Below, piece after piece: positions 9,847-47,013 of a stretch of 47,013 nt of DNA. The notes beneath the pieces are model-generated. The model was not told the origin of the DNA. It saw only the letters and a list, made by a program, of their open reading frames with translations, and made no database searches. The position numbers were made by a program, and so were the translations under genes. Numbering within the stretch: position 1 is the first letter of the stretch; each line of letters starts with the position of its first letter. Origin of the DNA: a virus; the IMG/VR virus record IMGVR_UViG_3300030060_002960, positions 5,819-52,831 of that record; one strand, written 5' to 3'.

Positions 9847-9847
9847 A

Positions 9848-13327: not shown

Positions 13328-13328
13328 A

Positions 13329-13367: not shown

Positions 13368-13385
13368 CTAAACAAGGAGAAAACA

Positions 13386-13601: not shown

Positions 13602-13891
13602 TGATTATACGATGCGCCTATGACAATGATGTTGTAATACATCTCAATAATAAAAAAGGTATGAAAAAGGACGTTCAATTGAGCGATGGATCGGTCATTG
13701 AGCTTACCTACCCAAGTACCAAGCAATATTTTTTACGCGTTAATGATAAGATTGTTAAGAGATCTGATAATTATAAAACGATTGAAGATGAGTATATAAA
13801 AGAATGTGAATCTCGTAAAGATAGTGATGATCATGGGCGCATCGATGTAGCGCTGCACAAGTTAGTGGATAATAAAGTGGCATTAATATGA
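13601..13891 (+). CDS. Hypothetical protein
   Basis: 96 residues, start coupled to the preceding stop (TAATG). The first 50 residues read as short beta strands (DNDVVIHLNN, GSVIELTYP, YFLRVNDKIV) and the rest as charged helix. There is no signal peptide or membrane segment. Codon use here includes CGC, GCG and GATC-containing codons absent from the left 13 kb, so composition changes at about this point. Function unknown. Confidence 0.5.
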   Translation: MIIRCAYDNDVVIHLNNKKGMKKDVQLSDGSVIELTYPSTKQYFLRVNDKIVKRSDNYKTIEDEYIKECESRKDSDDHGRIDVALHKLVDNKVALI

Positions 13892-13892
13892 T

Positions 13893-14219: not shown

Positions 14220-14259
14220 TCGAAACACAGTATTGGATGAATAGAGAGGTACGCTGGAA

Positions 14260-14556
14260 GTGACGGAGTTAGCAGATTTATACTTGCAAGTTGGCGCAGC
14301 TGGTTTTGTTTTTTTACTATTTGGATTTATGATTTTTAATCTTATTCAAAGTCAAAAGGAACAAAGCGAAGATTTAGAATCTATTAAGCAAAGTATATCT
14401 AAGATGGAAAGCGAAATATCAAATAGTCAAAATATTATTATTAAGCTAGTTGATAGAAGCAATGCATCAGATTCAAAACGTGAAGACTTTTGGCGTGAGA
14501 TAAGCGATGATTTATCGTTTTTAAAAGGAAGGATAAACGGACATGGCCAACGATAA
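14260..14556 (+). CDS. Membrane protein with N-terminal TM helix and coiled coil
   Basis: 98 residues from a GTG start preceded by AGAGAGG. Residues about 10-30 are a strong transmembrane helix (AAGFVFLLFGFMIFNLI). The rest is a charged coiled coil (QKEQSEDLESIKQSISKMES) ending in a basic tail. It overlaps the next gene by 14 bases. Topology matches several holin-associated or spanin-like proteins. With its neighbours it forms a probable lysis cassette, but which member is the holin cannot be settled from sequence alone. Confidence 0.5.
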   Translation: MTELADLYLQVGAAGFVFLLFGFMIFNLIQSQKEQSEDLESIKQSISKMESEISNSQNIIIKLVDRSNASDSKREDFWREISDDLSFLKGRINGHGQR

Positions 14557-14758
14557 AGATTTATTTGCAATGATGGTCAAGTTTGATGAAAGACAAAGGA
14601 CCATATTTAATACATTGCATAGAATAGAGAAACATTTAGAAAAGTTAAATGGTAAAGTTGCAGATCACGATACCGCCATAACTAAGCTGCAAACAGTTGG
14701 CGCGGTAGCGGTAATTAGCATACCAGTAATAGTAAACGTAATAATGAGGTTAGTATAA
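14543..14758 (+). CDS. Holin-like (XhlA-type topology) protein
   Basis: 71 residues. A coiled-coil-forming N-terminal part (residues about 10-48, RIEKHLEKLNGKVADHDTAI) is followed by one C-terminal hydrophobic segment (VGAVAVISIPVIVNVIMRLV). Coiled coil plus C-terminal membrane anchor in about 70 residues is the layout of hemolysin XhlA-like phage proteins, which act with holins. The family call rests on topology, not on a profile match. Its stop overlaps the next ATG (TAATG). Confidence 0.45.
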   Translation: MANDKDLFAMMVKFDERQRTIFNTLHRIEKHLEKLNGKVADHDTAITKLQTVGAVAVISIPVIVNVIMRLV

Positions 14759-14985
14759 TGAAGAAACTACTTAAAATGCTCAAAGATCTATTAAATGGTC
14801 TAATTAAGTCTCAAGTAAAGGTACTGCAAAGTGAAGCATTTGAAAACAAACTAGCAGCTGATATCGCAGCACAAATTCCAGACGTTCCGGGTTTTGGCGA
14901 TATGGAACAAAAGATGGTTGCAAAGTTAGCGATTGATGCATGTACAGACAAGTTGGCAGAAGCTATTAACATGGAAGCTGATTGA
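14758..14985 (+). CDS. Hypothetical amphipathic helical protein
   Basis: 75 residues. The N-terminus is an amphipathic Lys/Leu helix (MKKLLKMLKDLLNGLIKSQV) that could lie on a membrane. The rest is Ala-rich helix with a short linker, PDVPGFGDME. No family is recognised. Placement between the membrane genes and the basic-protein run leaves a role in lysis or in virion packaging open. Confidence 0.4.
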   Translation: MKKLLKMLKDLLNGLIKSQVKVLQSEAFENKLAADIAAQIPDVPGFGDMEQKMVAKLAIDACTDKLAEAINMEAD

Positions 14986-14988
14986 TCT

Positions 14989-15243
14989 ATGATCAAGTAC
15001 CGAGGTGAAAGATTTTCTGGTTACAATAAGGTCAAGCGCACGCCCGGCAAGCGTAAGAAGTTTGCGGTGCTTGCAAAGCAAGGTAAGCGTGTTAAGCTTA
15101 TTCGCTTTGGCGATCCAAATATGCGTATTAAGAAATCGAATCCAGCTAGACGTAAATCATTTCGCGCTAGGCATAAATGTGATTCTCCAGCTACTAAGAG
15201 AAATAGATTAACGGCTAGATATTGGTCATGTCGCAATTGGTGA
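14989..15243 (+). CDS. Small very basic protein (DUF5754-like)
   Basis: 84 residues with a strong net positive charge. The C-terminal part has the pattern FGDPNMRIKKSNPARRKSF followed by RARHKC and a final YWSCRNW, which I recall as the signature of a small uncharacterised family (DUF5754) in tailed phages and large eukaryotic viruses. Two conserved Cys (in RHKCD and WSCRNW) could bind a metal or be structural. It opens a run of five tiny basic genes. The charge suggests DNA or RNA binding, perhaps genome condensation in the capsid, but the function is not established. Confidence 0.6.
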   Translation: MIKYRGERFSGYNKVKRTPGKRKKFAVLAKQGKRVKLIRFGDPNMRIKKSNPARRKSFRARHKCDSPATKRNRLTARYWSCRNW

Positions 15244-15247
15244 TATT

Positions 15248-15421
15248 ATGAAAATCAAAGGCGTGAATGTAACAGGACTTACTAAAAGACAAATTAGTGC
15301 AATGCGTAAGCATGCTCGTCATCACACTGCAAAGCATTTGCGTTCAATGGTAAGAGCTATGAAACGAGGTAGGACGTTTACACAAAGTCATAAATCAGCT
15401 ATGAAAAAGGTTGGCAGATGA
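15248..15421 (+). CDS. 57-residue basic protein
   Basis: ATG at 15248, TGA at 15419-15421. The product is helical and rich in Lys, Arg and His: LTKRQISAMRKHARHHTAKH followed by MKRGRTFTQSHKSAMKKVGR. The repeated pattern of Thr-x-x-x-His/Lys and the closing KKVG resemble small basic proteins I have seen in other marine phage gene runs, though I cannot name a family. Its stop overlaps the next ATG (ATGA), so it is co-translated with the next basic gene. Confidence 0.55.
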   Translation: MKIKGVNVTGLTKRQISAMRKHARHHTAKHLRSMVRAMKRGRTFTQSHKSAMKKVGR

Positions 15422-15637
15422 GAAAGAAAAGAAAAAGAAAAGCTAAGTCAAGAGTAAATGAAGCGGGTAACTACACCAAGCCAGCGCTTCGTAAAAGATT
15501 GTTTTACCGAATTAAGGCTGGGTCAAAAGGAGGTAGAGCTGGCCAATGGTCAGGACGACCCCTTTGGGGGCATCCAATTACGTAAAGCACAAATGTTAGC
15601 AAGAGCATATAAAAAAGCCGGTGGCGGGTATAAGTAA
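15418..15637 (+). CDS. Basic protein, gene split by a +1 frame change
   Basis: ATG at 15418 opens MRKKRKRKAKSRVNEAGNY, then TKPALRKRLF and GGRAGQWS, but this frame stops at 15583-15585 after 55 residues. The +1 frame takes over between 15553 and 15582 and ends RKAQMLARAYKKAGGGYK at 15635-15637, exactly overlapping the next ATG. Related small phage proteins, as I recall them, run GQWS straight into RKAQ-like and GGGYK sequence, so both halves look like one gene with a 28-bp insert. The insert holds CCCC (15559-15562) next to TTTGGGGG. CCC-C could allow +1 slippage, giving a 72-residue product; an indel or sequencing error in the G run is the alternative. Confidence 0.5.
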
Positions 15638-15882
15638 TGGCGCTTAAAAAGTCACAACGTAGTTTAAAGAAATGGACCAAGCAAGATTGGGGGTACGTTT
15701 CAAAAGGTGATGCAAAAAAGCCAAGACGCAAGCGTGGTAGATATTTACCAGCTAGCGTGCGTAAAGGTATGACAGCATCACAAAAAGCTTACGAGAACCG
15801 TAAGAAGCGTGCAGCAAGCCGTAAAGGTAAGCAGCGTGCTAAATACAGCAAAAGAACACGAAGTAAAGTAAGGAGGGCATGA
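15637..15882 (+). CDS. Small very basic protein (DUF5872-like)
   Basis: 81 residues. The opening MALKKSQRSLKKWTKQDW, the middle GRYLPASVRKGMTASQKAYE and the closing Lys/Arg-rich tail match the pattern I recall for the uncharacterised DUF5872 family of small phage and bacterial proteins. A strong ribosome site (AAGGAGGG) inside its 3' end serves the next gene, whose ATG overlaps its stop. Over a third of its residues are Lys or Arg. A nucleic-acid-binding role is inferred from composition and the company it keeps. Confidence 0.55.
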   Translation: MALKKSQRSLKKWTKQDWGYVSKGDAKKPRRKRGRYLPASVRKGMTASQKAYENRKKRAASRKGKQRAKYSKRTRSKVRRA

Positions 15883-15968
15883 TGCCGGGACATTACGGGA
15901 GTAAAATGAAAAAGAAGGGTAAGAAGAAGAAGAAAAGACGCATGGTGAAGATGAGGAAGCGCAAGTGA
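15882..15968 (+). CDS. 28-residue Lys/Arg-rich miniprotein
   Basis: ATG at 15882 (preceded by AAGGAGGGC), TGA at 15966-15968. The peptide starts MPGHYGSKMKKKGKKKKKRR and ends MVKMRKRK: 17 of 28 residues are Lys or Arg. The MPGHYG- or MPYGKG-type opening followed by poly-Lys recurs among tiny phage proteins (recalled, not searched). The very strong ribosome site argues that it is expressed. It is protamine-like in composition. The next gene starts with GTG overlapping its stop. Confidence 0.5.
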   Translation: MPGHYGSKMKKKGKKKKKRRMVKMRKRK

Positions 15969-16447
15969 TAAACGCATCCCAAATGCGTGAAGTTATCACT
16001 GATACATTAAATGCCTTGGGGTCCAAATACGCCGATCCCAAGGCTATTGAGCTTATATATAATACTGGCTTAGTAGAATCAAAGTACGTGTATTTAAAGC
16101 AAATTAAAGGCCCGGCTCGCGGCTACTGGCAAATTGAATATTTAACAGCAATGGATATTTGCTCAAACTACTTACAGTACCGACCAAGCTTGATGAAAAA
16201 AATAGCGAAAGTATCTATGGTCGATATTAAATACTTTTTAAATCCAAAAGAGGATGATTGGCAGCACATATTAACCAGTAATCTGTATGCTCAAATATGC
16301 ATGACGCGGATGCACTATAGACGCGTACCTAAACCTCTTCCACGTACCTTAGAGGAGCAAGCACTTTACTGGAAAAGTCACTTCAATACCTACAAAGGAA
16401 AGGGTACGCCACAACATTTTGCGGAAATAGTGAGTAAGTATGGATGA
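15965..16447 (+). CDS. Lysozyme/transglycosylase-like protein (endolysin candidate)
   Basis: 160 residues from GTG at 15965. Residues 30-58 show a muramidase-like active-site arrangement: GLVESKY with Glu38, followed by IKGPARGYWQIE (residues 47-58). This E-x(n)-G-P-A-R-G-x-W-Q-x-E pattern recurs in phage proteins of the lysozyme superfamily. There is no signal peptide, so as an endolysin it would need a holin; the membrane genes just upstream fit. It could also be a virion-associated lysin. Substrate would be the glycan backbone of peptidoglycan. Confidence 0.6.
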   Translation: MINASQMREVITDTLNALGSKYADPKAIELIYNTGLVESKYVYLKQIKGPARGYWQIEYLTAMDICSNYLQYRPSLMKKIAKVSMVDIKYFLNPKEDDWQHILTSNLYAQICMTRMHYRRVPKPLPRTLEEQALYWKSHFNTYKGKGTPQHFAEIVSKYG

Positions 16448-16625
16448 CGCACAACAAATAGATAGACTGATAGAGGTTATGCAGCAACTTAAAGAATTAG
16501 AGTTAATGTATGCAGAGTCAAGCGATTTTGTAATTATGAGTCTTATGATGGCGTTAATCCATACAGTACAGATACCAAATGTAACCATTTTAAGTAATAA
16601 TAAACCGACTATGGCACAAGCATGA
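16440..16625 (+). CDS. Small hypothetical protein
   Basis: 61 residues overlapping both neighbours (8 and 4 bases), which supports translation. It has an N-terminal charged helix (IDRLIEVMQQLKELELMYAE) and a hydrophobic stretch (VIMSLMMALIHTVQIPNVTI) that may be buried or membrane-associated. Function unknown; it lies between the lysozyme-like gene and the first tail/connector gene. Confidence 0.5.
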   Translation: MDDAQQIDRLIEVMQQLKELELMYAESSDFVIMSLMMALIHTVQIPNVTILSNNKPTMAQA

Positions 16626-17605
16626 GTAGATACGAAGCATTTTGCAACACGACAACAGATTTACAAGCGATCTGCGATATAGATTCTTACGATCGCAAGA
16701 GAGTACTACCAAACAACGCTTGGGTAGCTTCTAGTACGTCAAACCTATATTTTCTTCATAACTCCGGATTTTGCAGCGTTTTGTACCGAAATGGTAAAGA
16801 TCTTGGAGCTGCTCAAAGCAGTGAACCTAGTAGTAATCAAACATGGCGTTATGTTGCAGCTGATGATCGTTTAGAGTACTTTGAGACATCCAGCAGTGTT
16901 ACTGCATTAGAAGCGTTAAACTTTGAGGAAAGTCAGGATTTCAGCACATTAAAAACGCAAGTGGTTAATGAAAGCGCTGATCTAATTAGATCTTACATAA
17001 ATCGGCCTGTATACCGCAGAAAAAACGCAGACCTACAAGGTGCAAGCTCACGCGAATATGACTTCATTTTGGTGCGAATAAACGCGTTATTAGCCGCTTC
17101 TGATTTGGTCCGTAGATATGATGAAGAAAAAGCAGATGAGATATACTCTAAAGCTATTAGTGTTGATGGCGATGGATTATTAGATCGATTAAAACGCGGT
17201 GACTTTGCACTATGGCACGAAACTACAAATAGATCAGAGGATGGCATCGTTCAGATAGTTTCAATCGATAGCTCGACAACCGGTTATCCCAGAGATATAA
17301 AAATGCATGGTCCGCCAAACGTGGACTACGATGAGATCAGATTAGTGATTTCTACCGGCGGTAATTTTCAACCAAAATCAGCAAGTACTGTGAAATACGA
17401 TGTGCTGGTAAAAGATGACACTGGTTTGGGCATGAGCAAAGTAGTTGACGCTGAGATCATTACTGGCAGTTATCAAACGTGTGCCTATGGATCACAAGTA
17501 ATATGGCAGCCGGGATTATATGTTACAGGAGATGAATTTGCCGTTACGTTTCAATCGTCCGATGTAGCCGTTGGAAGTGTTAAATCTGGGCAAATGTATC
17601 GTTAA
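16622..17605 (+). CDS. Putative head-tail connector / adaptor protein
   Basis: 327 residues. The central helical part (residues about 110-200, including LIRSYINRPVYRRK and FILVRINALLAASDLVRRYD) resembles the helical core of head-tail connector (gp6-like) proteins. The C-terminal third is beta-rich (YDEIRLVISTGG, KYDVLVKDD), unusual for the minimal family and perhaps a separate domain. It starts the tail module and overlaps the tail terminator gene by one base. In the proposed circular genome it follows the capsid, fibre and lysis genes. Confidence 0.5.
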   Translation: MSRYEAFCNTTTDLQAICDIDSYDRKRVLPNNAWVASSTSNLYFLHNSGFCSVLYRNGKDLGAAQSSEPSSNQTWRYVAADDRLEYFETSSSVTALEALNFEESQDFSTLKTQVVNESADLIRSYINRPVYRRKNADLQGASSREYDFILVRINALLAASDLVRRYDEEKADEIYSKAISVDGDGLLDRLKRGDFALWHETTNRSEDGIVQIVSIDSSTTGYPRDIKMHGPPNVDYDEIRLVISTGGNFQPKSASTVKYDVLVKDDTGLGMSKVVDAEIITGSYQTCAYGSQVIWQPGLYVTGDEFAVTFQSSDVAVGSVKSGQMYR

Positions 17606-18039
17606 TGGCTATCACGTTTACCAATCATTTAAATACTAATGTTCTATCTGCATTAGAATCTTTGCTGGTTGCAGAGTTTACACAACAAGTAAGTTATGAT
17701 AGAGACTATGTACAACGCGGGACCAACTGGTTTAACCTAAAACCAATTAGCGACACTATTGAAGAAGAGCAAGCCAATGGCCATACAAGGCTTTACGAGG
17801 TGCTGGTCCAGTATTATAGAATTGTAGGTGGAGAATATAAAAGAGAAACCCACCTTGATACGCTTTCATCTATAATGGAGCGTGCTAAAAGACTAATTAG
17901 AAACAATACTTCACATAGCACATTTTTCTTTAATGGCAAGCTTGATAATATTAATTATGCACCAGATACTGGTGATTTGTCATCCGATGTGCTATTAGTA
18001 GAAGCAACATTCACAGCAAACGTATTTGAGGTTGTATGA
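17605..18039 (+). CDS. Tail terminator / completion protein
   Basis: 144 residues, start coupled to the preceding stop. Helix-strand pattern with RIVGGEYKRETHL, then IMERAKRLIRNN and a C-terminal strand, VEATFTANVFEVV, in the style of tail terminator proteins that cap the tail tube and bind the connector. Its position between the connector and the major tail protein is the usual one for siphoviruses. The call rests on pattern and synteny. Confidence 0.55.
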   Translation: MAITFTNHLNTNVLSALESLLVAEFTQQVSYDRDYVQRGTNWFNLKPISDTIEEEQANGHTRLYEVLVQYYRIVGGEYKRETHLDTLSSIMERAKRLIRNNTSHSTFFFNGKLDNINYAPDTGDLSSDVLLVEATFTANVFEVV

Positions 18040-25563: not shown

Positions 25564-25983
25564 TTAGCCGAATACAAGCTCTCCAAATAGCGCAAATTGC
25601 ACAATCTCATCTGCGTCACCAGCATCAATATTACCCAAATCTAATGCTGTATCTCTGCGCGCACCGTCATAGTATACTTGTACTGAATTTCTATAAATCC
25701 AATGCTGTAAACCGCGTTGTAGATTCCTTTGATACAAAAAACCATGATTAAGCTCAAAGTGGTTATCTAAATCTTCACCTTTCCAGCCTATTGTAAGTCT
25801 ACCACCAATAGCAAGCCACTCATACTCATGTTCTACTTTTGTGCGGCCCTCTGGTAATTTAGAAGTGTCTCCGCCCTCACCAAAGATAGATGTAACCCAG
25901 TAGTTCACACCGCCCTCAAAAGCGGTGCAAAGCAGATCCATCATATCCTGTACAGATAATTCGACTTCTATATTTACTTTCAT
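25564..25983 (-). CDS. Conserved-type phage protein of unknown function
   Basis: 139 residues on the minus strand, directly after the integrase (its ATG overlaps the integrase stop). The pattern SVQDMMDLLCTAFEGGVNYW at the start, then GDADEIVQFALFGELVFG at the end, resembles a widespread phage protein that I have seen without an assigned function. There is no membrane segment or signal. It lies between integrase and attP, so co-expression with integrase is likely. Confidence 0.55.
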   Translation of the reverse strand: MKVNIEVELSVQDMMDLLCTAFEGGVNYWVTSIFGEGGDTSKLPEGRTKVEHEYEWLAIGGRLTIGWKGEDLDNHFELNHGFLYQRNLQRGLQHWIYRNSVQVYYDGARRDTALDLGNIDAGDADEIVQFALFGELVFG

Positions 25984-27110
25984 TACGCTACTCCCATTTT
26001 GCGTGTAAACGCACTATCTACGCTATCATTTATCTTATCCATGGTAGTATGCGATACTGGAGCATAATGCTTGGACACTACTGATTTTGTAGAATCGCCA
26101 ATAGCATATCCAGCAAGCTGTATATCGCCGTTTTCTTCTTCAGCCAACTGTGCCTTCAGCCTACGTAAATCATGGCACGTAAATTTGATATTTGTGATCT
26201 CGTTTATTTCAGCAAATATTGAACGTAGTTTTTTGTAACCAAACGGCAACGGTTTCTCTTTGCCTTCATCTTTCCATTTTTTGAATATGTCCATTACAAT
26301 TGGATGTTGCTTGGCAAGCTTTCTAGAATACTTACGTTTTGGTAATAGGCTAATTGTCCTTTCCGCAAAATCAATATGATGCCATTGCAACTCTTTTTTG
26401 CGGTTAAGATAGTTGTATCCAATAAGCTCTGAAGCTCGCGCACCAGTGTAGGTGTACACGGTCAGTAAGTCTTTCTGGAACTCGTTTAAATCTGTATGAT
26501 TAAATAAGCGCAATATTTCTTCATCGGTCCAGACTTTATAATTGGTTTCTTCAACCTCTGAAGAATTATACTTATCTGCTTTGGTAATTACTTCAAAGTT
26601 GACCATTCCTCTTCCTTGTGGTCCACCATTAGTTTGCGCCCAAGTAAAGATAGAGCGTAAATCACGTAAATAACTATTTACGCCATTCCTAGTACATTTC
26701 TGGCTTCTAATAGATTTGTATATCTCCCAACCAATAAGACCATTTTCTTTCATGCTGCGAATGTTTTCAACTGCTATATCACTGCCATATACATCGTAAG
26801 CAGATCTCATAACAGCTAAGTATTTATCTACGGTAAGTTGGTTTATTTTTTTACTAAGGACGTTGGTTTTATATGCATTAAACACGTCTTTTATCGTGAC
26901 CGTTTCATCGGTCATGTGATACATAGACTTCCAGATTGGGTTATTGGTTTTGTGATAATGCGCTATGTTTTCCCAGCGACGAAGCTCTTCATTAGCGTCA
27001 TGTTCATTGCTAAATGTAGCCTTCTGCCACTTGACCTTTACCGGGTCATAGTAGGATAGTACATATGGTTTTTTTGCGTTTTTTTCGGCTCTTTTATTAA
27101 TTGATGCCAT
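25983..27110 (-). CDS. int: Tyrosine-family integrase
   Basis: 375 residues. An N-terminal arm-binding-like domain (about 1-70), a SAM-like core-binding domain (about 70-160) and a catalytic domain (about 190-360). Catalytic signature: Arg225 in YTGARASEL, Lys in the LLPKRKYSRK hairpin, His313 and Arg316 in CHDLRR, and the nucleophile Tyr349 in SKHYAP. The second-His position, usually Gly-His, is Gly338-Asp339 here, a less common substitution. It catalyses site-specific recombination between attP and the host attB, probably in a tRNA gene. It is transcribed away from the repressor and toward attP. An ATG start is supported by AGGAG upstream. Confidence 0.9.
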   Translation of the reverse strand: MASINKRAEKNAKKPYVLSYYDPVKVKWQKATFSNEHDANEELRRWENIAHYHKTNNPIWKSMYHMTDETVTIKDVFNAYKTNVLSKKINQLTVDKYLAVMRSAYDVYGSDIAVENIRSMKENGLIGWEIYKSIRSQKCTRNGVNSYLRDLRSIFTWAQTNGGPQGRGMVNFEVITKADKYNSSEVEETNYKVWTDEEILRLFNHTDLNEFQKDLLTVYTYTGARASELIGYNYLNRKKELQWHHIDFAERTISLLPKRKYSRKLAKQHPIVMDIFKKWKDEGKEKPLPFGYKKLRSIFAEINEITNIKFTCHDLRRLKAQLAEEENGDIQLAGYAIGDSTKSVVSKHYAPVSHTTMDKINDSVDSAFTRKMGVA

Positions 27111-27145: not shown

Positions 27146-27946
27146 CTAATCAATTACGAATTTTATCTTAGATTCAATTTTCATATCTTTCCAGAAAACT
27201 TTATTGTACGTTACTGCTGGTACAATATTATTATCCTTATCTTTGTATATTAATGGCATGATAAAGAAATGATCTCCAAGCAGTGTTTTGAGTGCGCTAA
27301 TGATCATTGGAAATTTATCCATTTCTTCTTTCATTGCTCTGATGGTCTTTAATTCAAGTATTTCAAAAATCTTTCTTTCATCGTCAAACCATTTATCAAC
27401 GCCAACTTCCAGTACTTCAAATAGATAGTCTGTTGGATAGTTTAATTTTTTTGACAAAGCATCTAATTTATAAACGCTTTTTACTTTAGTACCAAATTTC
27501 AAACCATTTCTTAGAATTACTGTATCTGTTGAAAAATCAAATGCTATGGCCTTCCATTGTTTTGTAGATGGATTTTGATTTAACAGTAAATCATAAGAAG
27601 TCTTTTTTTCTTCAATTTGTTTTTCTAATTGCTCATTAGTCTTTTCTAATACAGCAATGTACTTTTGTTCAATCGTTTGTTGGTTTGTCATGTTTGTCTC
27701 CTCGTTTTTGATGTGGTGAATTTGAATTCCTTCTGGTGTTTTTATTATTTTTAAGTTAAATGCATTTGCTACGGCATATAGTGATTTATCATGTATTTGA
27801 GTAGCGCTTCCATTTAACCACCTATATATCTGTTGTCTGCCAATATTGGTTTGTAGACTTATTTCAGTGATGTTAGTGCCGGGTGACAAAAGTTGCTTTT
27901 GAATCATTGCAACAACTGCACTGTGTTTAGACGTGTATAGTTTCAT
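27146..27946 (-). CDS. CI-like lysogeny repressor, non-LexA type
   Basis: 266 residues. The N-terminal 65 residues form a helix-turn-helix (ITEISLQTNIGRQQIYRWLN) followed by a coiled coil at about 90-125. The C-terminal part (130-266) is a globular domain with no Ser/Lys autoprotease signature, so induction by RecA-stimulated self-cleavage is not expected. It is divergent from the Cro-like gene across 99 bases carrying promoters and AGCTACACAT repeats, the classic immunity arrangement. The strong AAGGAAAG ribosome site supports the ATG at 27946. Confidence 0.7.
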   Translation of the reverse strand: MKLYTSKHSAVVAMIQKQLLSPGTNITEISLQTNIGRQQIYRWLNGSATQIHDKSLYAVANAFNLKIIKTPEGIQIHHIKNEETNMTNQQTIEQKYIAVLEKTNEQLEKQIEEKKTSYDLLLNQNPSTKQWKAIAFDFSTDTVILRNGLKFGTKVKSVYKLDALSKKLNYPTDYLFEVLEVGVDKWFDDERKIFEILELKTIRAMKEEMDKFPMIISALKTLLGDHFFIMPLIYKDKDNNIVPAVTYNKVFWKDMKIESKIKFVID

Positions 27947-31646: not shown

Positions 31647-31831
31647 TGTTTTTAATTGATGTAGCAGAGTGGTGCGTAGAAGCACTTGTGTTAGGTTTGT
31701 CTTTTTTCTTTTTTGCGATTGGAACATTCATTTTATTAATGGTCATAAGTGTCTGTAAAAATGCAATAACAAGAAATGATTATATAGCAGAGTTTAAGGA
31801 GTGGGTAAATGGGAAAAATATTAAAGCATAG
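31646..31831 (+). CDS. Single-pass membrane protein, small
   Basis: About 61 residues from ATG 31646. A long hydrophobic helix, VEALVLGLSFFFFAIGTFIL, is followed by a charged C-terminal part. There is no cleavable signal, so an N-out or N-in anchored protein is possible. It overlaps the following nuclease gene by 23 bases. Possibly a superinfection-exclusion or host-takeover protein; no motif supports a choice. Confidence 0.45.
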   Translation: MFLIDVAEWCVEALVLGLSFFFFAIGTFILLMVISVCKNAITRNDYIAEFKEWVNGKNIKA

Positions 31832-32537
31832 TAAGTTTAAAAAGCATGGTCAACATTACTTATTAGATGATGAAACCAAAGCACCAAGTGTTACTACGGT
31901 TATCGGAAATAATTTAGGTTGGAATAAAAATGCATTGATGAACTGGGCAAAGACACAAAGCGCTATGGGTAATGACGTAGATGCAATGCTAAGTGATGCA
32001 GCAGATACGGGTATATTACTTCACTTGCTTATTGAAGCTCATCAGCGTGGATTTGATGTTGATACCAGAGACTTTACAGCGAATCAAGAAGCAGCTGCAT
32101 TAAAATGTTTTACCGGGTATTTAAACTGGGCCAATAAAGTAAAATTTAAACCACTTGCAAGTGAAGTGATTATTGTAGATAATGATCAGCGTGTAGCGGG
32201 TACGGTAGATTGTATTGGTAAAGTGGGTGACGACTTAATTTTAATTGATTGGAAAACGAGTCGATATTTGTACCCAGAGCATAAAATTCAAGTGTCGCAA
32301 TACGTACATATGATGGAAAAGCCTGATAAAGTTAGCTATATAACCGTAAAAGATGGTAAGGCAAAGCGACTTACGCCAGAAAATAATAAACGCAAATTTG
32401 CCTATGCTATGATATTAAGATTTGATAAGACCGAGGTAAAGTACCACCAACATAAGGTAAAACGTGAAAAGATAGAAGCGGGTATCATTGCATTTCAAAA
32501 CCTTTTAAACCTACATAATATTAAGAAGTCAGTTTGA
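31809..32537 (+). CDS. PD-(D/E)XK exonuclease (Cas4/RecB-like)
   Basis: 242 residues. All four classic exonuclease motifs are present: ADTGILLHLLIEAH (His72), LASEVII (Glu119), RVAGTVDCIG (Asp134) and LILIDWKTSR (Asp147-x-Lys149), followed by the QVSQYVHMM helix (Gln161, Tyr165). This is the RecB/Cas4-type nuclease fold. In a phage replication block it would process DNA ends for recombination or packaging, or degrade host DNA. It overlaps the primase-helicase by four bases. Confidence 0.75.
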   Translation: MGKILKHSKFKKHGQHYLLDDETKAPSVTTVIGNNLGWNKNALMNWAKTQSAMGNDVDAMLSDAADTGILLHLLIEAHQRGFDVDTRDFTANQEAAALKCFTGYLNWANKVKFKPLASEVIIVDNDQRVAGTVDCIGKVGDDLILIDWKTSRYLYPEHKIQVSQYVHMMEKPDKVSYITVKDGKAKRLTPENNKRKFAYAMILRFDKTEVKYHQHKVKREKIEAGIIAFQNLLNLHNIKKSV

Positions 32538-34396
32538 AACCGCACTTTAGTCGCGTAAATGCGCGCGGCACTAGAGCGGTTTGCCCACAGCCAGATTGTG
32601 GAACAGACTTTAGTGTCAGTATACAAGAAGAGTTTAGCTACTGCCATCGATGTAAAAAGTCTTGGTCTCATGAAGAAAATAATCGTGTAGAAATAGAATC
32701 TTATGAACCGGTAAACACACGCACGCCAGTGTTCATTCGGGGTAATAAGGTGCGTGAAGAATCTAAATACGATGAAGCACGAAATAATTATGTAAAACAT
32801 TTTGAATTAGTAACTAAACATTTACAGTTACCATGGCCAGAAGCTGCAAAAGAATATGAAGTTGGAGCCATGAATAAGGGCGACGACGATATACAATTAG
32901 TTTTTAAAATTGAGGATGACCATTATAAATATCACAAAGGCAAGCAATTTGGTAATGCAGAATGTAAGATTTTCCCACGTAGTGTGCTTACACAACTACA
33001 ACCCCATAGCACGCTACTGGTCGTAGAAGGCGAAAAAGACGCGATTACGGCCAATTCCAACGGTGCGCCAGCTATAACCTTCACATCGGGTGCTGGCGCA
33101 CTACCCTCCAATATTGATTCGATCAAAGAGTTTACAAAGCTGGTACTTTGTTACGATAACGATCAGAAGGGTATAGAAGGTGCGGAAAAAGTTGCGATGC
33201 AGTTATATAAACAAAATAAAAACCGTAAGCTGAAAATATTAAAATGGTCAAACAAGCCAGACAAATATGATCTTACGGACTATTTTAGTGATGGATATAC
33301 GGCCAATGACTTGTATAGCTTGATTGATAAAATGCCGGTGTATGGAACAAGTGCGTCGGACTTTGGCGGTTTAAATGCGTATGATCCAGAAACATTTATT
33401 AATAGGTTTCAAGATGAAGTCGTACAAATATGTGAAGAAATACTTTTAGAGAATGGCACTTCTAGCATCTCTGGCCAATCAAACGTAGGCAAGTCTATAC
33501 TGGCTTTGCAGTTCGCTATGTCTGTGGCCATGGGAGTGCCATTCCTTACTTTTGATGTACCACGGCCACGTAAGGTGCTACTGGTCCAGTTTGAGATGAT
33601 GGACGCCCATATGCGGACCAGAGTTAATAAATGTATGGCCGGGATGTTATCAAAGTATCCTAATAAACAATCGTTATTGCGTGACAATTTGAAAATCACA
33701 TCTATGGAAAATATTAAAATATTTACGGACCAATACAAAGCGATCGAAGGTAACCTCATGTCAGGCGATTTTGATGTCTGTGTTGTAGACAATTTGTACA
33801 GTAGTTCTGGTACACAGCTACATAAGAATGATGCATTAACGCAGCTGATGAGCCGTATTGATGAGCTAAGAAAAGAATATCAGTGCGCGTTTATGATGAT
33901 TAGCCATCATAAGAAGCTGGAAGAGAAACGGCCGTTGGAGCATAGTATGGTGTATGGTGGATCGTACTTTGTTAACTTTCTGGACAATCTGGTCCAAGTG
34001 GCCAACACCGGGCGTCACAACCAGTTAAAAGTGTTTAAGATAACTAAGATCCGGACCGAGAACGAGTTCCATGAAGTTCCACTTGGGATCTGGCTGCATG
34101 CAGATGATGATGAATTGTATTTTCAGTATCGTAAGCCGTTGCCAAAAAACGAAGCGTATTGGTATACCGATCCGGAAGAGAATGCGGAAGAGCGAGTATT
34201 GAAAGCGTTGGATACTGAGGGTGACAATTTTTCATACATGCAGTTTGCAGATGCGCTGGAAAAGACGTTAAAAATTACCAGCATGAAGAGTGTATATAAA
34301 TGGTTAGATAAGCTAGAAAACATGGGGTATATCTTGAAGATTGAGCGCGGACATTACGTTAAATGTGCTAATGAACTGGATAACTTAATAAATTAG
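32534..34396 (+). CDS. Primase-helicase (Zn finger, TOPRIM, RecA-type ATPase)
   Basis: 620 residues from TTG. Zinc-binding Cys17, Cys22, Cys37, Cys40; TOPRIM primase core with LLVVEGEKDA (Glu165) and CYDNDQKG (Asp208, Asp210); then a RecA/RepA-type ATPase with Walker A SGQSNVGKS (313-321) and Walker B FDVCVVDN (Asp419). This is the gp4-like layout in which priming and unwinding are joined in one protein. It likely drives phage genome replication, with the SSB-like protein at 28832 as partner. The A-tract/T-tract inverted repeat immediately downstream may be its site of action. Confidence 0.85.
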   Translation: MKPHFSRVNARGTRAVCPQPDCGTDFSVSIQEEFSYCHRCKKSWSHEENNRVEIESYEPVNTRTPVFIRGNKVREESKYDEARNNYVKHFELVTKHLQLPWPEAAKEYEVGAMNKGDDDIQLVFKIEDDHYKYHKGKQFGNAECKIFPRSVLTQLQPHSTLLVVEGEKDAITANSNGAPAITFTSGAGALPSNIDSIKEFTKLVLCYDNDQKGIEGAEKVAMQLYKQNKNRKLKILKWSNKPDKYDLTDYFSDGYTANDLYSLIDKMPVYGTSASDFGGLNAYDPETFINRFQDEVVQICEEILLENGTSSISGQSNVGKSILALQFAMSVAMGVPFLTFDVPRPRKVLLVQFEMMDAHMRTRVNKCMAGMLSKYPNKQSLLRDNLKITSMENIKIFTDQYKAIEGNLMSGDFDVCVVDNLYSSSGTQLHKNDALTQLMSRIDELRKEYQCAFMMISHHKKLEEKRPLEHSMVYGGSYFVNFLDNLVQVANTGRHNQLKVFKITKIRTENEFHEVPLGIWLHADDDELYFQYRKPLPKNEAYWYTDPEENAEERVLKALDTEGDNFSYMQFADALEKTLKITSMKSVYKWLDKLENMGYILKIERGHYVKCANELDNLIN

Positions 34397-34399
34397 CGC

Positions 34400-34543
34400 A
34401 TGGGTAAAAAAAGTAAAAAAAGTAAAAAAAGTAAAAAACTTTTTTACTTGGCAACGCAGTTTCGCAGTAGTCGTCACGTCAATCTTTTTTACTTTTTTTA
34501 CTTTTTTTACTTTCTGGGGGTGTACGGTGTTTTTTTACACTAG
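34400..34543 (+). CDS. Possible 47-residue KKS/FYF-repeat peptide over the A-tract repeats
   Basis: ATG 34400 opens a frame with no stop until TAG 34541-34543. Because the DNA repeat is nine bases long, it encodes tandem KKS units followed by LFYLATQFRSS and a hydrophobic (FYF)-type tail. A basic start and aromatic hydrophobic end could make a membrane-interacting peptide. The alternative, favoured here, is that the repeat is a DNA structure and the open frame is incidental. No strong ribosome site is seen. Confidence 0.3.
   Translation: MGKKSKKSKKSKKLFYLATQFRSSRHVNLFYFFYFFYFLGVYGVFLH
34402..34513. repeat. Phased A-tract and T-tract inverted repeat array
   Basis: Left arm: GTAAAAAAA three times plus GTAAAAAAC, nine-base period, from 34404. 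It runs into a perfect 10+1+10 inverted repeat (AAGTAAAAAA-C-TTTTTTACTT). Right arm: TTTTTTTAC-type units, three copies, ending near 34512. The arms are inverted copies separated by about 40 bases holding CGCAGTTTCGCAG and GTCGTCACGTC. Helically phased A-tracts bend DNA strongly. Candidate replication origin or protein-binding array. Confidence 0.6.
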
Positions 34544-38104: not shown

Positions 38105-38501
38105 AAAAATTGACATAGATGGTAAAAAAGTTCGCATGCTCGCAAGCTTTGGCTGTACGTATATGGACATTGGTAAATATTACCAGTGCAACGAAAGCGT
38201 AATTCGTAAGCGTTTCAAGGCTGAATTTGAAGCTGGGCAAGAAGAATTAAAACTTTCCTTACGTAAAAATCTTATAAAAATGAGCCTAGAAGATCAAAAT
38301 ACAGCTGCGTCTATTTTTCTAGCAAAAAATTACCTCGGCATGTCCGACAAAACTGCGATCGACCTAACTGGTAACATAGAAAGCGTACTCAAAGAGTGCG
38401 GATTCGAGGACAACCCCATTGATCAAGCAAATACTGAACCGCGAGAAGCTCTGGAAGCTCTTGGGTTATCAGCCGACGCCACACCAACAGGACATTCATA
38501 A
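38097..38501 (+). CDS. terS: Terminase small subunit
   Basis: 134 residues from ATG 38097 (GTG 38094 is one codon upstream). HTH: RMLASFGCTYMDIGKYYQCN followed by a helical oligomerisation region (FLAKNYLGMSDKT) typical of TerS. It would recognise the packaging site and stimulate the large subunit. The 83-base overlap with TerL in another frame is notable. Confidence 0.65.
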   Translation: MGKKIDIDGKKVRMLASFGCTYMDIGKYYQCNESVIRKRFKAEFEAGQEELKLSLRKNLIKMSLEDQNTAASIFLAKNYLGMSDKTAIDLTGNIESVLKECGFEDNPIDQANTEPREALEALGLSADATPTGHS

Positions 38502-39726
38502 TAGCAAAGCACGATTCCGCGTGTGCAACATGGGCCGTCGCAGCGGTAAAAGTTGGATGGCAGCTCATGAAATCATCCCATGGTTACTTACACCAAACAC
38601 ACGCGGCTGGATTGTAGCGCCTAATTACAACTTAGGACAAAAGGTAGCTCGTGAGGTCAAGCGCATCGTGATCCGCGAGTTAAAACTACCCATAGAATCC
38701 AAAAAAGAAATTAGCGGTGATCTATACTTCATGCGCCTATCCGGATTAAACTCAGAACTAGCGGTTCGGTCCGCGGACTCCCCGGAAAGTCTCATTGGGG
38801 AAGGCGTTGATTATCTAGTAATAGACGAGATGGCTCTTATATCGCAGCAAGTATATGAGATGTTCTTGCGACCTACTCTGGCTGATAGGCAAGGCTGGGC
38901 GTTATTCTGCTCCACTCCGCGCGGATTCAACTATTTTGAGCAGCTCTTCCGCTATGGAGCCGACCCAAAACACCCGGAATGGGAGAGCTGGCAAGTACCT
39001 AGCTGGGAATCTCCATTCTTCAAAGATGACATAGAACAACTAAAAAGGACAATGACTCGTGAAACATTTTTACAAGAGGTCGGAGCCGAATTTACCAGCT
39101 ATGCTGGAAAAGTTTACGACTTTGATCGCTTTACCCAAGTTAAACCAGCACTCAAGTATGACCCAAACCTACCGACATACGTCAGTATCGATTTCGGCTT
39201 CAGGGCAAGCTGCGCTGTTGTGCTACAAATACAAAACAACCCAGATGGCCTATCCACGATTTACCAGATAGATGAAATATTTTTAGAAAATTGTACAACG
39301 GAAGAGCTTGCCAAGCTAGTCAAAGGTTTACCGTATCACATCATCGCCTATTTTGGCGACCCAGCTGGTGCGGGTTCTAATTTGCAGACTGGTCTATCGG
39401 ATTTTCAGCAATTTTCTAGAAAATATGGAATAAAGATACGCTGCCGAAAAGACCGCCATAATCGCGATGTGATCAATGGCATCACTCATGTGCGCCGTTG
39501 GTTTGAAGATGCAAATGGAGAGAAACATTTCTTTGTAGCCAAGCGCTGCAAGAAATCCATACAGAGCTATGAGAACTATCGCTACCCGGAGCATAAAAAG
39601 GATCAGCAGCTTAAAGAAATGCCATTAAAAGATGGTGTAAACGACCATATTTGCGATGCGCTCAGATTCGGTATTGTAAACTTATTTCCTATTAGAAGTA
39701 GAACCGCTGGATTAATAGATTGGTAA
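38419..39726 (+). CDS. terL: Terminase large subunit (ATPase-nuclease)
   Basis: 435 residues from TTG 38419. ATPase: Walker A GRRSGKS (39-45), Walker B LVIDEM (133-138, Asp136-Glu137), coupling motif near CSTPRG (164-169). RNase-H-like nuclease: Asp258 in YVSIDFGF, Asp314 in YFGDPAGAG, Asp413 in NDHICDALRF. It translocates and cuts DNA during packaging. Identity of the packaging strategy would need the TerL phylogeny. Confidence 0.9.
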   Translation: MIKQILNREKLWKLLGYQPTPHQQDIHNSKARFRVCNMGRRSGKSWMAAHEIIPWLLTPNTRGWIVAPNYNLGQKVAREVKRIVIRELKLPIESKKEISGDLYFMRLSGLNSELAVRSADSPESLIGEGVDYLVIDEMALISQQVYEMFLRPTLADRQGWALFCSTPRGFNYFEQLFRYGADPKHPEWESWQVPSWESPFFKDDIEQLKRTMTRETFLQEVGAEFTSYAGKVYDFDRFTQVKPALKYDPNLPTYVSIDFGFRASCAVVLQIQNNPDGLSTIYQIDEIFLENCTTEELAKLVKGLPYHIIAYFGDPAGAGSNLQTGLSDFQQFSRKYGIKIRCRKDRHNRDVINGITHVRRWFEDANGEKHFFVAKRCKKSIQSYENYRYPEHKKDQQLKEMPLKDGVNDHICDALRFGIVNLFPIRSRTAGLIDW

Positions 39727-41069
39727 TTTTAGAAAGTTTAAGTGAAGACGCGATCCACGCGTCACTAAAAGACGAACTCTCATACATAGAGGATGAGCGC
39801 ACACGAGAACGTGACTTCATGCTTGATTTTTATGAGGGGATCAATATTGATCATTACGTAGGCGACTATTTTAGCCGCGAAACACTAAAACAAGTTCCTA
39901 TTATGCAAGGTAACATTACAAAGCGTGTCGCTTCATTAGTTGCCATGACGTATATGCGTTCACCAAGATTACGTGTGAACGATAGATATAAAGAATTAGT
40001 AGATATGTCTAATCTACAAGCTCAACGACGGCTGGTTGAGCGCCTAACATTTTTACTCGGAACAATGGCGTTTAGATCGTACTGGGATGAAAACGTAGGT
40101 AAGATAAAGTATCAAACACTAAGCCACTTTACACCGCTATTTTTAGCGGGCGATAACCGCGATGAACCAGTTGGAGTAATGTACCCGATTGAATACCAAG
40201 GTAATGCACGCGTGGAGACTCCAGTTCACGCGGTTTGGACCAAAGATACTCCAGATACACAAGGTATGCATTACCTAGTGGACCAACATGGAGATAAAAT
40301 ATCTGTTAATGATCAAGATCGCAATCCTTATGGTGTATTGCCGATTACCTTTTGCCATCGCTATCCACCCATACGTGACTTTTACTCTGGATCTGGAGCT
40401 ATGGATGTCGTTACATGTGATTTAGCTACCTCTGTGGCCATGCATGAACTGCAACTCTGTACCAGATATGGCGCGATGGGGATCAAGTATCTTACGAATA
40501 TCGACGATCCATCTCGCGTAGAAATCGGCGTTGATAAATTATTATACCTTCCGCAAGATTCGGATCTAAGAGTTACAAGTCCCGGTGGTTCTCTTGTGGA
40601 AATCATTGACAGCATCCGATTCTTTGTAGAGTCCACATTGAACAACAATCATATCCGTGCAAAATATGCCCGTTCCGATTCTGGGAATGCGCCGTCCGCG
40701 GCAAGTTTGTCTATTTTGGAAATGGAAAATATGAACAATCGCACTGCAATGACAGAAGATACATGGCGGCCTTGGGAGCATCGTAGGTACGAAGTAGACC
40801 GCAGAATTTTACAAGTAGAAGCCAATGCCGACCCCGGACCAGACTACTCTGTGGATTTCTTAGAGCCTAATTATGCTCTCACTCCAGAATCAGAGATTGC
40901 ACTATGGTCATTTTATTTTGACCGGGGATTAGCTACTGAGGAATCTTGGTACCTATATAAAAATCCCGATGCTTCGCCAGAAGAGATAGCCAAGTTTCGT
41001 GAGCAACAAGAAGCGAAGCAAGAAGACCAGACCCCACAAAATCGTCTACTAAATAGACTACAGAGCTAA
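39720..41069 (+). CDS. Portal protein
   Basis: 449 residues from TTG 39720, overlapping the terminase stop. N-terminal helical region (EDERTRERDFMLDFYEGINI), a beta-rich middle (IKYQTLSHFTPLFLAGDNRD) and a long helical C-terminus ending in Gln/Glu-rich sequence. Position between TerL and the MuF-like gene is the usual portal place. It would form the dodecameric DNA channel at the head vertex. Confidence 0.8.
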   Translation: MVILESLSEDAIHASLKDELSYIEDERTRERDFMLDFYEGINIDHYVGDYFSRETLKQVPIMQGNITKRVASLVAMTYMRSPRLRVNDRYKELVDMSNLQAQRRLVERLTFLLGTMAFRSYWDENVGKIKYQTLSHFTPLFLAGDNRDEPVGVMYPIEYQGNARVETPVHAVWTKDTPDTQGMHYLVDQHGDKISVNDQDRNPYGVLPITFCHRYPPIRDFYSGSGAMDVVTCDLATSVAMHELQLCTRYGAMGIKYLTNIDDPSRVEIGVDKLLYLPQDSDLRVTSPGGSLVEIIDSIRFFVESTLNNNHIRAKYARSDSGNAPSAASLSILEMENMNNRTAMTEDTWRPWEHRRYEVDRRILQVEANADPGPDYSVDFLEPNYALTPESEIALWSFYFDRGLATEESWYLYKNPDASPEEIAKFREQQEAKQEDQTPQNRLLNRLQS

Positions 41070-42969: not shown

Positions 42970-43863
42970 ATGGCTTATACCGCTTTTGCTGGTGACGCTA
43001 CACAAGGTACTGGATCACACTTAGACAAGATGATACCAGAGCTATGGTCGGAGGCCATCATGCGTTATTTCGATAAACAGCTAGTTATGCGACCATTTTT
43101 TGATGACTACTCAAGTCTTGTGCAAGGAAAAGGAGATGTTATTCATCTTCCATCTATACAGGAAGTAGCTGTTGGAGATAAGACCGCTAACGAAGGTGTT
43201 ACTTACAGCGTAAACACTGAAACAGAAATTCAAATCTCAATTAATAAACACAAATTCAGCGCTAAACTTTTCGAGGATATAGCTCTCATTCAATCCAATG
43301 AGCAGCTTTTTGACAAGTATGCTGCTTCTATGGCTTATGGTCTTGCTAAGGCTGTAGATAGTGATATTATTACTGAGCTGAATTCTCTTGGAACAACACA
43401 AGCATTAGCAGCAGATAACACGTTATCAAATGCTGATGTGGAAACCGCCCTTGGCACACTGATGAATAACGATATACCAAAGGAAGAATGTGCTTTCTTT
43501 GTAAATCCATTGGTGTACGCTGACTTACTAAACTCACGCTCATTTAATGTGGGTGGCGGTAATGTCGGTGGTGCTGGTGCAACTGGTATTGGATTTGGTG
43601 GTGACATCTCTGGAAACTTTCCATCTCTTTTTGGAATTCCAGTATTTCAAACATCATTGATTGCTAGTGCTTTAGGCGCTGGTACTCATGCTGGATACTT
43701 AGCTCATCGCTCGTCGGTGGCTGTAGCTGTGCAGCAAGACATTAGAATGCAGAGTGAATATTCTGTTGATTACTTAGGCACTAAGGTAGTTGCCGACGTG
43801 ATTTACGGAGTAAAAGTAACTACTGCAAACCAAGTCAAAGGAATTGAGCTACTCAATCCGTAA
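42970..43863 (+). CDS. Major capsid protein (HK97-like)
   Basis: 297 residues with a strong AAAGGAG site. Features of the HK97 fold as seen in sequence: IPELWSEAIMRYFDKQLVM at the N-terminus, IHLPSIQEVAVGDKTANEGV, an E-loop-like beta hairpin region, ECAFFVNPLVYADLL and a C-terminal DYLGTKVVADVIYGVKVTT. No large N-terminal delta domain, consistent with a separate scaffold. It forms the icosahedral shell. Assigned from sequence style plus its position after the scaffold. Confidence 0.8.
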   Translation: MAYTAFAGDATQGTGSHLDKMIPELWSEAIMRYFDKQLVMRPFFDDYSSLVQGKGDVIHLPSIQEVAVGDKTANEGVTYSVNTETEIQISINKHKFSAKLFEDIALIQSNEQLFDKYAASMAYGLAKAVDSDIITELNSLGTTQALAADNTLSNADVETALGTLMNNDIPKEECAFFVNPLVYADLLNSRSFNVGGGNVGGAGATGIGFGGDISGNFPSLFGIPVFQTSLIASALGAGTHAGYLAHRSSVAVAVQQDIRMQSEYSVDYLGTKVVADVIYGVKVTTANQVKGIELLNP

Positions 43864-44143: not shown

Positions 44144-44428
44144 ATGGCAACATCAAACCTACATAGGTATACTGGTCAAGAAGCTCTAAACAGGCTTGGC
44201 GGCGGTGGATACGATTACGTCACCGACGCAACAGTAAACTCACACGTCTACGTTGCAATACAAGCATTATCAGTTGATTGTGTTATATCTGCAACATCAT
44301 CCGACACAGATATTTGGGACACCTTATCAAGTGTTACCATCAAAGCCGGTCAAACTATTTACGGAGAATGGACTTCCGTTACGGTTGCGAGCGGCGATTT
44401 TGCAATAGTTTACAGGAGGTCAAGCTAA
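44144..44428 (+). CDS. Small virion protein upstream of the fibre cassette
   Basis: 94 residues after TTAGGAGAATCA. Beta-rich: YDYVTDATVNSHVYVAIQAL, then TIKAGQTIYGEWTSVTVASG and DFAIVYRRS. Small proteins with this strand pattern are frequent after marine phage capsid genes; a decoration or fibre-base role is inferred. Stop overlaps the next ATG (TAATG). Confidence 0.55.
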   Translation: MATSNLHRYTGQEALNRLGGGGYDYVTDATVNSHVYVAIQALSVDCVISATSSDTDIWDTLSSVTIKAGQTIYGEWTSVTVASGDFAIVYRRSS

Positions 44429-44772
44429 TGGCTGATTTACATAAAAGATCCGTACAAGAAGCATTAAACGTCACCGTTGGTGGTGGATGGAGCGTGCAGA
44501 CCGCTTTGACAGCGGGATCAGAAGCAGATGTAACTAATACAATTCATAAACAGTTGGCAACGATGACCAGTACTATTGGCGTGCATTCAGCAGTAGAGAT
44601 TTATTTTAGTTTTGCAACAAGCGAAGTAGATATCGATAAGAGCAAAGATTTGATTATTCCAAAAAATACTATGATCTATCTCACAGTACCTCGTGGATTA
44701 GGCAATACTGTGTACTTCTCTATATTAAGTACATCCACGACTACTGGCGCAGTAAGGTTAGTGGAGATTTAA
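44428..44772 (+). CDS. Short pre-fibre virion protein (paralogue of the 9481-9846 gene)
   Basis: 114 residues from ATG 44428, coupled to the preceding stop. LHKRSVQEALNVTVGGGWSV, a central DLIIPKNTMIYLTVPRG region and a final AVRLVEI resemble the left-hand pre-fibre gene (DVIIPAQTLMSIRVPNG and SLRLVEV). Both are followed after one base by a fibre starting ATGTTT. A fibre-adaptor or decoration function is inferred. Confidence 0.6.
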   Translation: MADLHKRSVQEALNVTVGGGWSVQTALTAGSEADVTNTIHKQLATMTSTIGVHSAVEIYFSFATSEVDIDKSKDLIIPKNTMIYLTVPRGLGNTVYFSILSTSTTTGAVRLVEI

Positions 44773-44773: not shown

Positions 44774-47013
44774 ATGTTTAATTCAATGGGGTCATCCAAT
44801 CCGCAAGACCTTGGTAATGGCGGAGAAATATCTGGAGACTTAACCGTAACCGGAAGTCTGAACGTAGGCGGTTCAATTGGCTTAACGCTATCAGAAGTAA
44901 TACAAGGCACATCAACAATAGATGTCGACTCAACAACAGCATTAGTGGTACGCAAGGATGGTGCATCTGGTGATGTATTTGTTGTAGATACAACTAATTC
45001 AGCGGTTGAGGTTGGTGGTCATTTAACCTTACCAGATGCAAGTGGTTCTGGTGGTGTTTTAAAACTTGGTGCGAGTGAAGATATTCAAATATATCACGAT
45101 GGTAGCAATTCATATCTTGACCATCTAAATACTGGTAACTTAAACATAAGAAGTTTAAGGCACGGAGGTGATATAAAATTTCATACTGAAGCAAGTGATG
45201 GCACTCAACATTCAATATTAACTCTTGCTAATGATAGTTTGGCTACGTTTTCTGGAAATGTTGGTATAGGCGTATCACCTTCAAGCAAACTCCACATTAA
45301 TGTTGGTACTAACCAAAATCTTGAAGTAACAACTGTTAGTTCTAAATTACACTTAATGGGTACTAACGATGCAAGAAATGCCAATATCCCACTTACTCTT
45401 GGTTTTACAGAGTATGATTTTGAAGGAGCAAGTGGCTCTACAATAAGGCTTAAATCTACTAATTCAAACATAACTGGTGCTGAACTTGTTGGAAAACTTG
45501 AAGCATATATATCTGATGCAAGTGGAAACTTACCGGGTGTAGCTGGTTCTATTGATTGGACAACAAGCGGTTCAATAGATGGTGGATCAACAAAAGGCAC
45601 AACTTTAACTTTAAAAAACTATCTTGAATCTGCTGGTTTACAAACTGTTCTCACAATAGACAAAGATAAAATGGCTACTTTTTCTGGTATTATTTCTCTT
45701 CCAGATGGTTCTGCTTCTGCTCCATCATTAACAAATACTGGCGATACTGATACAGGTTTATTTTTCTTAGCCGGTAACACGATAGCATTTACTACAGGTG
45801 GAACACAAAGAGGTTATTTTAGTGGTAGTGGAAACATTGAATGGTCTAATGGTGACCTTAGTATTGGCAATATAGTAGCATCTGGTGATGTAAGCCTTGA
45901 TTCTGCACTTACTTTAGGAGTGGGTGGATTAACTAATGGAAAAATAAACACGCCAGAAGCAATGTATTTCAACATTGATAGTGACAACAGTCAAACTGAT
46001 ACAGAGTTTGTATGGGGTTGCAATAGAACAGCAGATAGTGGTGGTTCTGAATTAATGAGATTGACAGAGTCGGGGAATCTTGGTATAGGAACGGCACAAT
46101 TTGGTAAGACTCACTTAGATGTGCAAAGCTATCAAGCTGATGGAATCACCATTGGTGCTGATAATGATGCTAACAGGACAAGAACAAATAGCACTTCTAA
46201 GAGTGGTGGCATTACTGGTGTTCATTATACCAATGCAGAAGAAAGCATAAGATTAATTGGATATTCTTCTTCATCTTCAGATAATACACTTCTTCTTGGT
46301 GGTGGTAATGGTGATTGGAACTCAGCAACTGTTATAAACTTTTATGTTGGTGCAAATACTACAACTACTACTGGTGATTTAAAATTTAAACTTGACTCTA
46401 ACTCTGTTATCTCACTCTCTAATAATGATGGTGGAAACACAGGCAATACAATATTTGGACATACTGCTTGGCAACAGTCAGGTAATGTAGGAGCTGATTA
46501 CAACACAATTTTTGGTCAAGAAGCAATGGGTTCTGGTAATATTAGTTCAGCAGAGCGTAATACTGGAATTGGAATGGCTGTTATGAGGAGCATTACTACT
46601 GGTGATTCCAACGTAGCTGTGGGAGCAGATTGTCTTTACGCTTTAACTACAGGAAGTTCAAACATTGCAGTTGGGCGAGATTCATTTAAAAGTGCCTCAT
46701 TTGGTGAAACTGGAAATGTGGCTATTGGACATTCAGCAATGTCAAGTTTAAACGAAGGTTCTATAGGTACTGCTGATAACAATATCGCAATCGGGCAACA
46801 AGCCTTACTTGGTGGAGCATTTGCTGGTAATCCTAAAGTCGTAAATGATAATATTGCTATTGGAGCCTTTGCATTGGATGCTACATCTGACAATTCTCAA
46901 ACAGGTACGATTGCTATCGGAAGAGATGCACTTGGGGCGTTGACCTCTGGTGCAAGGAACACAGCAGTTGGATACCAAGCAATGGATGAATTGACTGTGG
47001 GTGAAGACAATGT
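44774..47013 (+). CDS. Long tail fibre / trimeric adhesin (3' truncated at the window edge)
   Basis: 746 complete codons with no stop, running off the right edge. N-terminus: GGEISGDLTVTGSLNVGG shaft repeat; residues about 540-746 are YadA-head-like repeats (GNTIFG, NVAVGA, NIAVGR, NVAIGH, NIAIGQ). The last 77 bases equal 11966-12042. Joined there, the frame would continue to 13054 and give about 1083 residues, almost the same length as the other fibre (1068). Likely the receptor-binding fibre of the siphovirus. Confidence 0.8.
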   Translation, partial: MFNSMGSSNPQDLGNGGEISGDLTVTGSLNVGGSIGLTLSEVIQGTSTIDVDSTTALVVRKDGASGDVFVVDTTNSAVEVGGHLTLPDASGSGGVLKLGASEDIQIYHDGSNSYLDHLNTGNLNIRSLRHGGDIKFHTEASDGTQHSILTLANDSLATFSGNVGIGVSPSSKLHINVGTNQNLEVTTVSSKLHLMGTNDARNANIPLTLGFTEYDFEGASGSTIRLKSTNSNITGAELVGKLEAYISDASGNLPGVAGSIDWTTSGSIDGGSTKGTTLTLKNYLESAGLQTVLTIDKDKMATFSGIISLPDGSASAPSLTNTGDTDTGLFFLAGNTIAFTTGGTQRGYFSGSGNIEWSNGDLSIGNIVASGDVSLDSALTLGVGGLTNGKINTPEAMYFNIDSDNSQTDTEFVWGCNRTADSGGSELMRLTESGNLGIGTAQFGKTHLDVQSYQADGITIGADNDANRTRTNSTSKSGGITGVHYTNAEESIRLIGYSSSSSDNTLLLGGGNGDWNSATVINFYVGANTTTTTGDLKFKLDSNSVISLSNNDGGNTGNTIFGHTAWQQSGNVGADYNTIFGQEAMGSGNISSAERNTGIGMAVMRSITTGDSNVAVGADCLYALTTGSSNIAVGRDSFKSASFGETGNVAIGHSAMSSLNEGSIGTADNNIAIGQQALLGGAFAGNPKVVNDNIAIGAFALDATSDNSQTGTIAIGRDALGALTSGARNTAVGYQAMDELTVGEDN
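46937..47013 (+). repeat. 77-bp exact repeat, right copy (ends at window edge)
   Basis: Identical to 11966-12042 over its whole length and in the same codon phase (offset 2163 from the ATG at 44774, a multiple of three, versus 2118 from the ATG at 9848). The window stops at the last matching base. Most likely an assembly-graph junction. Confidence 0.95.

Follow-up and report, generated by a model that had tools for sequence, protein, structure and literature searches.

Why does a viral record end in an exact copy of a stretch of its own interior, with both copies lying inside fibre genes? We addressed this question in a window of 47,013 nucleotides, the whole stretch of DNA analysed here, which spans positions 5819-52831 of the 52,831-bp IMG/VR record IMGVR_UViG_3300030060_002960. 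Window and record end together on the right, whereas on the left the record has a further 5,818 bases; we read the whole record as the upstream locus L005 plus the window. Our analysis indicates that the record is almost certainly a metagenome assembly chimera, not a phage carrying a biological repeat, and that the repeat is an assembly-graph seam between two marine phages, here called T and C.

The repeat at the record end

Two intervals define the repeat.

11966-12042, plus strand: first 77-bp copy; putative node common to both fibre genes and chimeric seam, with a sharp left boundary
46937-47013, plus strand: second 77-bp copy, an exact match to 11966-12042; record end and putative re-entry point of a closed path

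The original prediction described these intervals as identical, preceded by a mismatch, ended by the window edge and in frame in both fibres, and each of these points was confirmed. The 77-mer occurs just twice in the window, both times in frame 0 of its fibre open reading frame (9848-13054, and 44774 to the edge). No other repeat in the window comes close in length, the remaining exact repeats of at least 20 bp being low-complexity copies of 20-26 bp at 34.4-34.5 kb. The base 5' of the repeat is mismatched between the copies; further upstream, 33-bp blocks agree at about 22, 21 and 18 of 33 positions, after which identity drops to background. Because this drop is complete within about 100 bp, the left boundary is a true divergence point; the right boundary is simply where the record stops. 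An assembly seam would be expected to leave an exact overlap running from a divergence to a contig end, and this is the arrangement we observed.

Next, we searched for similar repeats elsewhere. A terminal 21-mer recurred within its own locus in none of 192 other loci, whose ends are not always contig ends, so a repeat of this kind is not a usual property of ends among the loci compared. The exact 77-mer was found in no other IMG/VR contig, in a search that possibly left out the source record itself. Scans of the window for tRNAs and Rfam families found none.

De Bruijn assemblers break where several paths meet and leave end sequences of maxK length, and chimeric joins occur in their assemblies (PMC10914622). 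Our model suggests that two unrelated tailed phages were present in one sample and that their fibre genes had one or more stretches of no fewer than 77 bp in common. Such a stretch would form a graph node with two ways in, one from the T fibre (11965) and one from the C fibre (46936). The assembler would have entered from T, crossed the node, gone once round the 34,971-bp closed path of C, returned to the same node and stopped there, leaving a k-length overlap at the contig end. The post-fibre continuation of phage T itself would then be missing from the record. We infer the assembler as the cause of the repeat, and k = 77 from the number alone, which is consistent with a k-mer setting. The usual SPAdes k series (21, 33, 55, 77, 99; PMC10914622) includes this value. 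Since the overlap equals k whatever the true length, 77 bp of common sequence and several hundred would leave the same trace in the record.

Two phage families on either side of the probable seam

To the left of the seam lies piece T, which carries the following features.

1-11965, plus strand: window part of piece T, collinear with contigs G011, G013, G016 and G017 and not with the relatives of C
9481-9846, plus strand: gene directly 5' of the T fibre, a distant homologue of 44278-44772
9848-11965, plus strand: 5' part of the phage T fibre, with the T-type N-terminal anchor common to the G011, G017 and G013 fibres

The original prediction had seen this piece as a 12-kb tail hanging off a circle. 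The tail itself stood, and relatives further identify it as a fragment of another phage type; its size did not, because the 5,818 upstream bases were invisible to that reading. The whole piece covers positions 1-17783 of the record (17,783 bp, about 12 kb of them inside the window). It starts with a major head protein (phrog_1328, L005:10-1455), followed by proteins with weak tail matches, and the whole T-side fibre frame matched fibre-related PHROGs. The product of 9481-9846 is 99, 85 and 97% identical in amino acids to its counterparts in G011, G017 and G013, and the pre-fibre genes of T and C match across the families at 35-36%.

The four collinear contigs measure 43,280 bp (G011), 20,249 bp (G013), 45,953 bp (G016) and 44,069 bp (G017). 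These comparisons support phage T as a distinct type, having a head protein of its own and a genome size of about 43-46 kb, of which the record would hold the first third. G011 (IMG/VR 3300037963_000959) and G013 (IMG/VR 3300030107_000117) have head proteins 97% and 88% identical to that of T; they differ from piece T in the fibre beyond the anchor, and they are without the terminase, portal, head or replication genes of piece C. Matches of the T head protein among cultured phages are weak (Vibrio, Aeromonas, Roseobacter and other phages; 23-28% over about half).

The remainder of the window forms piece C.

11966-46936, plus strand: piece C, a path of 34,971 bp that closes on itself, collinear with G001, G005, G006 and G008
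12043-13054, plus strand: fibre 3' part and tip, predicted to complete the C fibre (1083 aa) when joined to 46936
25983-27110, minus strand: integrase (phrog_1, E 1.4e-19)
27146-27946, minus strand: HTH regulator, likely repressor (HTH_3 above the Pfam cut-off)
31809-32537, plus strand: exonuclease (phrog_298, E 4e-27)
32534-34396, plus strand: primase/helicase (phrog_239, E 6.5e-25)
38419-39726, plus strand: terminase large subunit (phrog_2, E 1.7e-44)
39720-41069, plus strand: portal protein (phrog_533, E 6.5e-5)
42970-43863, plus strand: major head protein (phrog_267, E 4.8e-34)
44278-44772, plus strand: gene directly 5' of the C fibre, 95% amino-acid identity in G001
44774-46936, plus strand: 5' part of the phage C fibre, with a C-type N-terminal anchor shared with relatives

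Terminase, portal and major head protein mark a tailed dsDNA phage, and the integrase and repressor-like regulator mark a temperate one. Piece C probably represents a single temperate phage with its full gene set. The independent contigs collinear with it measure 32,164 bp (G001), 35,487 bp (G005), 35,742 bp (G006) and 34,688 bp (G008). Two of them, L006/G001 (IMG/VR 3300029319_000262; head 96% identical) and L015/G005 (IMG/VR 3300030430_003920; head 94% identical), keep its gene order throughout, including the junction from head protein through fibre to post-fibre genes; unlike the record, they have no T genes, and their fibre tips differ. Matches of the C head protein to cultured phages are weak and cyanobacterial, for example Anabaena phage A-4L (27-33% over about 60%), and a scan of bacterial genome contigs for a prophage with this protein gave a single match, at 25%.

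Two further regions of piece C were noted. Directly 3' of the primase/helicase gene, 34404-34513 holds direct copies with a 9-bp period together with an imperfect inverted repeat (104 bp, about 75%); the region could be a replication origin. On the minus strand, the protein encoded at 35267-36199 matches the Pfam family Gene product 88 (PF17338) above the cut-off and adjoins a 404-aa minus-strand frame with no PHROG or Pfam match.

Are the two pieces ever found together? The two head proteins, one per piece, belong to different PHROGs, and IMG/VR holds many relatives of each. Whole-contig searches of 50 C contigs found no T head protein, and those of 50 T contigs no C head protein. As a control within the whole-contig search, the C query recovered its own family; the T query found its family in the IMG/VR search. 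GC content is 0.346 in T versus 0.389 in C. Between the two contig sets, nothing in common was detectable outside the fibre, the pre-fibre gene and a few small genes, mostly just after the fibre. The two arms therefore belong to different genomes elsewhere, as an assembly chimera predicts, and comparison with relatives supports a record that joins two unrelated phages.

These results bear on another reading, in which the record derives from a genuine linear phage exceeding 53 kb, with two fibres and two head proteins; gene conversion would have produced the 77-bp repeat, and the record would simply end there. The contig does exist as deposited, and phage fibres do recombine (PMC10579305). However, the two pieces are collinear with two different phage families, both head proteins occur together in 0 of 100 contigs, and the repeat would have to end exactly at the record end by chance. 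We consider such a phage highly improbable.

The predicted fibre junction and closed path

If the record is a chimera, position 46936 would continue into 11966. Joining them gives one open reading frame of 1083 aa with no internal stop, in agreement with the intact fibre of about 1083 residues originally predicted, and the circle length of 34,971 bp was also correct. In L006, L013 and L015, the equivalent of window positions 44.8-45.0 kb leads through the fibre to the equivalent of 13.1-19 kb, which is the predicted C junction. In these relatives the closed arm closes at the matching point of the gene order, one fibre linking the 44.8-kb side to the 13.1-kb side. The fibre of each of the three lies in one open frame, between about 940 and 1420 aa long, a range that brackets the predicted 1083.

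The two fibre starts are distinct, MFNSMGSSNPQDLGNGG (C-type) at 44774 and MFRSITNN (T-type) at 9848, and the first 225-228 bp of the C fibre are 91-92% identical in DNA to L006 and L009. Since the fibre N-termini are family-specific, each half-fibre belongs to a different virion. Of the C relatives, G004 and G005 match the part after the seam right to its end and G001 matches most of it, while T relatives match it only in its repeat-rich part. Among 20 contigs tested, full-length matches to 12043-13054 came only from C relatives. The tip is also present in other phages (L189, L195), and because it has spread in this way it may exist in phage T too. In the nearest C relatives the fibre tips differ (53% amino-acid identity at best among the main-family contigs), so the junction is without a close parallel at the nucleotide level; gene order and the intact frame are what support it.

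A fibre-switching or variable-fibre locus in one phage population, with two alternative 5' halves and one 3' end, would also fit the in-frame joining of two 5' parts to a single 3' part. The two 5' anchors come, however, from different virion families, as do the genes preceding them, and the sole inverted self-match of the record lies at 34.4-34.5 kb, away from the fibres; we regard this explanation as extremely improbable. A true recombinant in the sample, in which phage C carries a T segment at its fibre beside a normal 35-kb circle, would draw on sharing of fibre segments between the families that is real, and a minor recombinant is conceivable. Yet the T genes reach the seam in normal T order and stop, the record has no second T border, and a single shared node accounts for all of this with no additional genome. 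Such a recombinant is very unlikely, and we retain the assembly chimera.

Circularity, as we infer it, holds for the graph path, a graph circle being no proof of a physical one. Breaks in the C relatives fall near 18.1, 31.2 and 37 kb; a circular or permuted genome would account for such different points, but so would ordinary contig breaks. No terminal repeats were found in the relatives.

Fibre DNA shared between the families, and comparison with known systems

Finally, we compared fibre DNA across the two families. L052:4987-5465, from a C-family contig, and L175:10273-10754 (G011:25273-25754), from the T family, have 482 bp in common at 89.6% identity, with an identical run of 116 bp. L052 and G011 come from different samples, and the segment lies inside open fibre frames of opposite anchor type. 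Since relatives of both families share such a segment, collisions between their fibres in an assembly are to be expected. Some fibres in both families also carry the linker ISLSNNDSG followed by GN-rich repeats.

Fibre tip and next small gene (12617-13327; gene 13088-13327) were observed together in several phage types (L185, L187, L189, L195), a 111-kb contig among them, the small gene being up to 92% identical; tip and gene appear to be a mobile pair. In the C-family contig L066 (7805-11430), a 2-kb stretch of post-fibre genes is about 75% identical to T-family DNA, apparently a module exchange beyond the fibre.

Whether the shared stretch at the seam marks a real, recent exchange of fibre repeat and tip DNA between the two families, whose head proteins are unrelated, by a mobile fibre and post-fibre module among co-occurring marine phages with presumably a common host, we hold to be evenly balanced. 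If it does, chimeric records of this kind would mark exchange sites. The repeat itself is almost certainly an assembly artefact of low biological interest, and the only biology here is fibre-module exchange, a known phenomenon. Taken as deposited, the record would pass wrongly for a 53-kb phage having two capsids and two fibres. Cutting it at the seam yields a temperate phage of 34,971 bp, probably complete, together with an 18-kb piece of a second phage.

Both aspects have known counterparts. Like the contig-end overlaps described by the COBRA rule (PMC10914622), the repeat is an exact end overlap running from a path divergence to the contig end. In contrast to those overlaps, the partner of this end lies inside the same contig; because the two contig ends do not match each other, a simple two-end comparison misses the circle, and a search for a terminal k-mer recurring inside its contig would catch it. 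Exchange of host-recognition modules between unrelated phages is already known (PMC10579305): the distantly related Alteromonas phages A5 and V22 have tail-fibre modules in common. As here, host-recognition DNA is shared by phages that are not closely related. The phages and the fibre type differ from ours, and that case concerned isolates, whereas ours was read from sequence alone.
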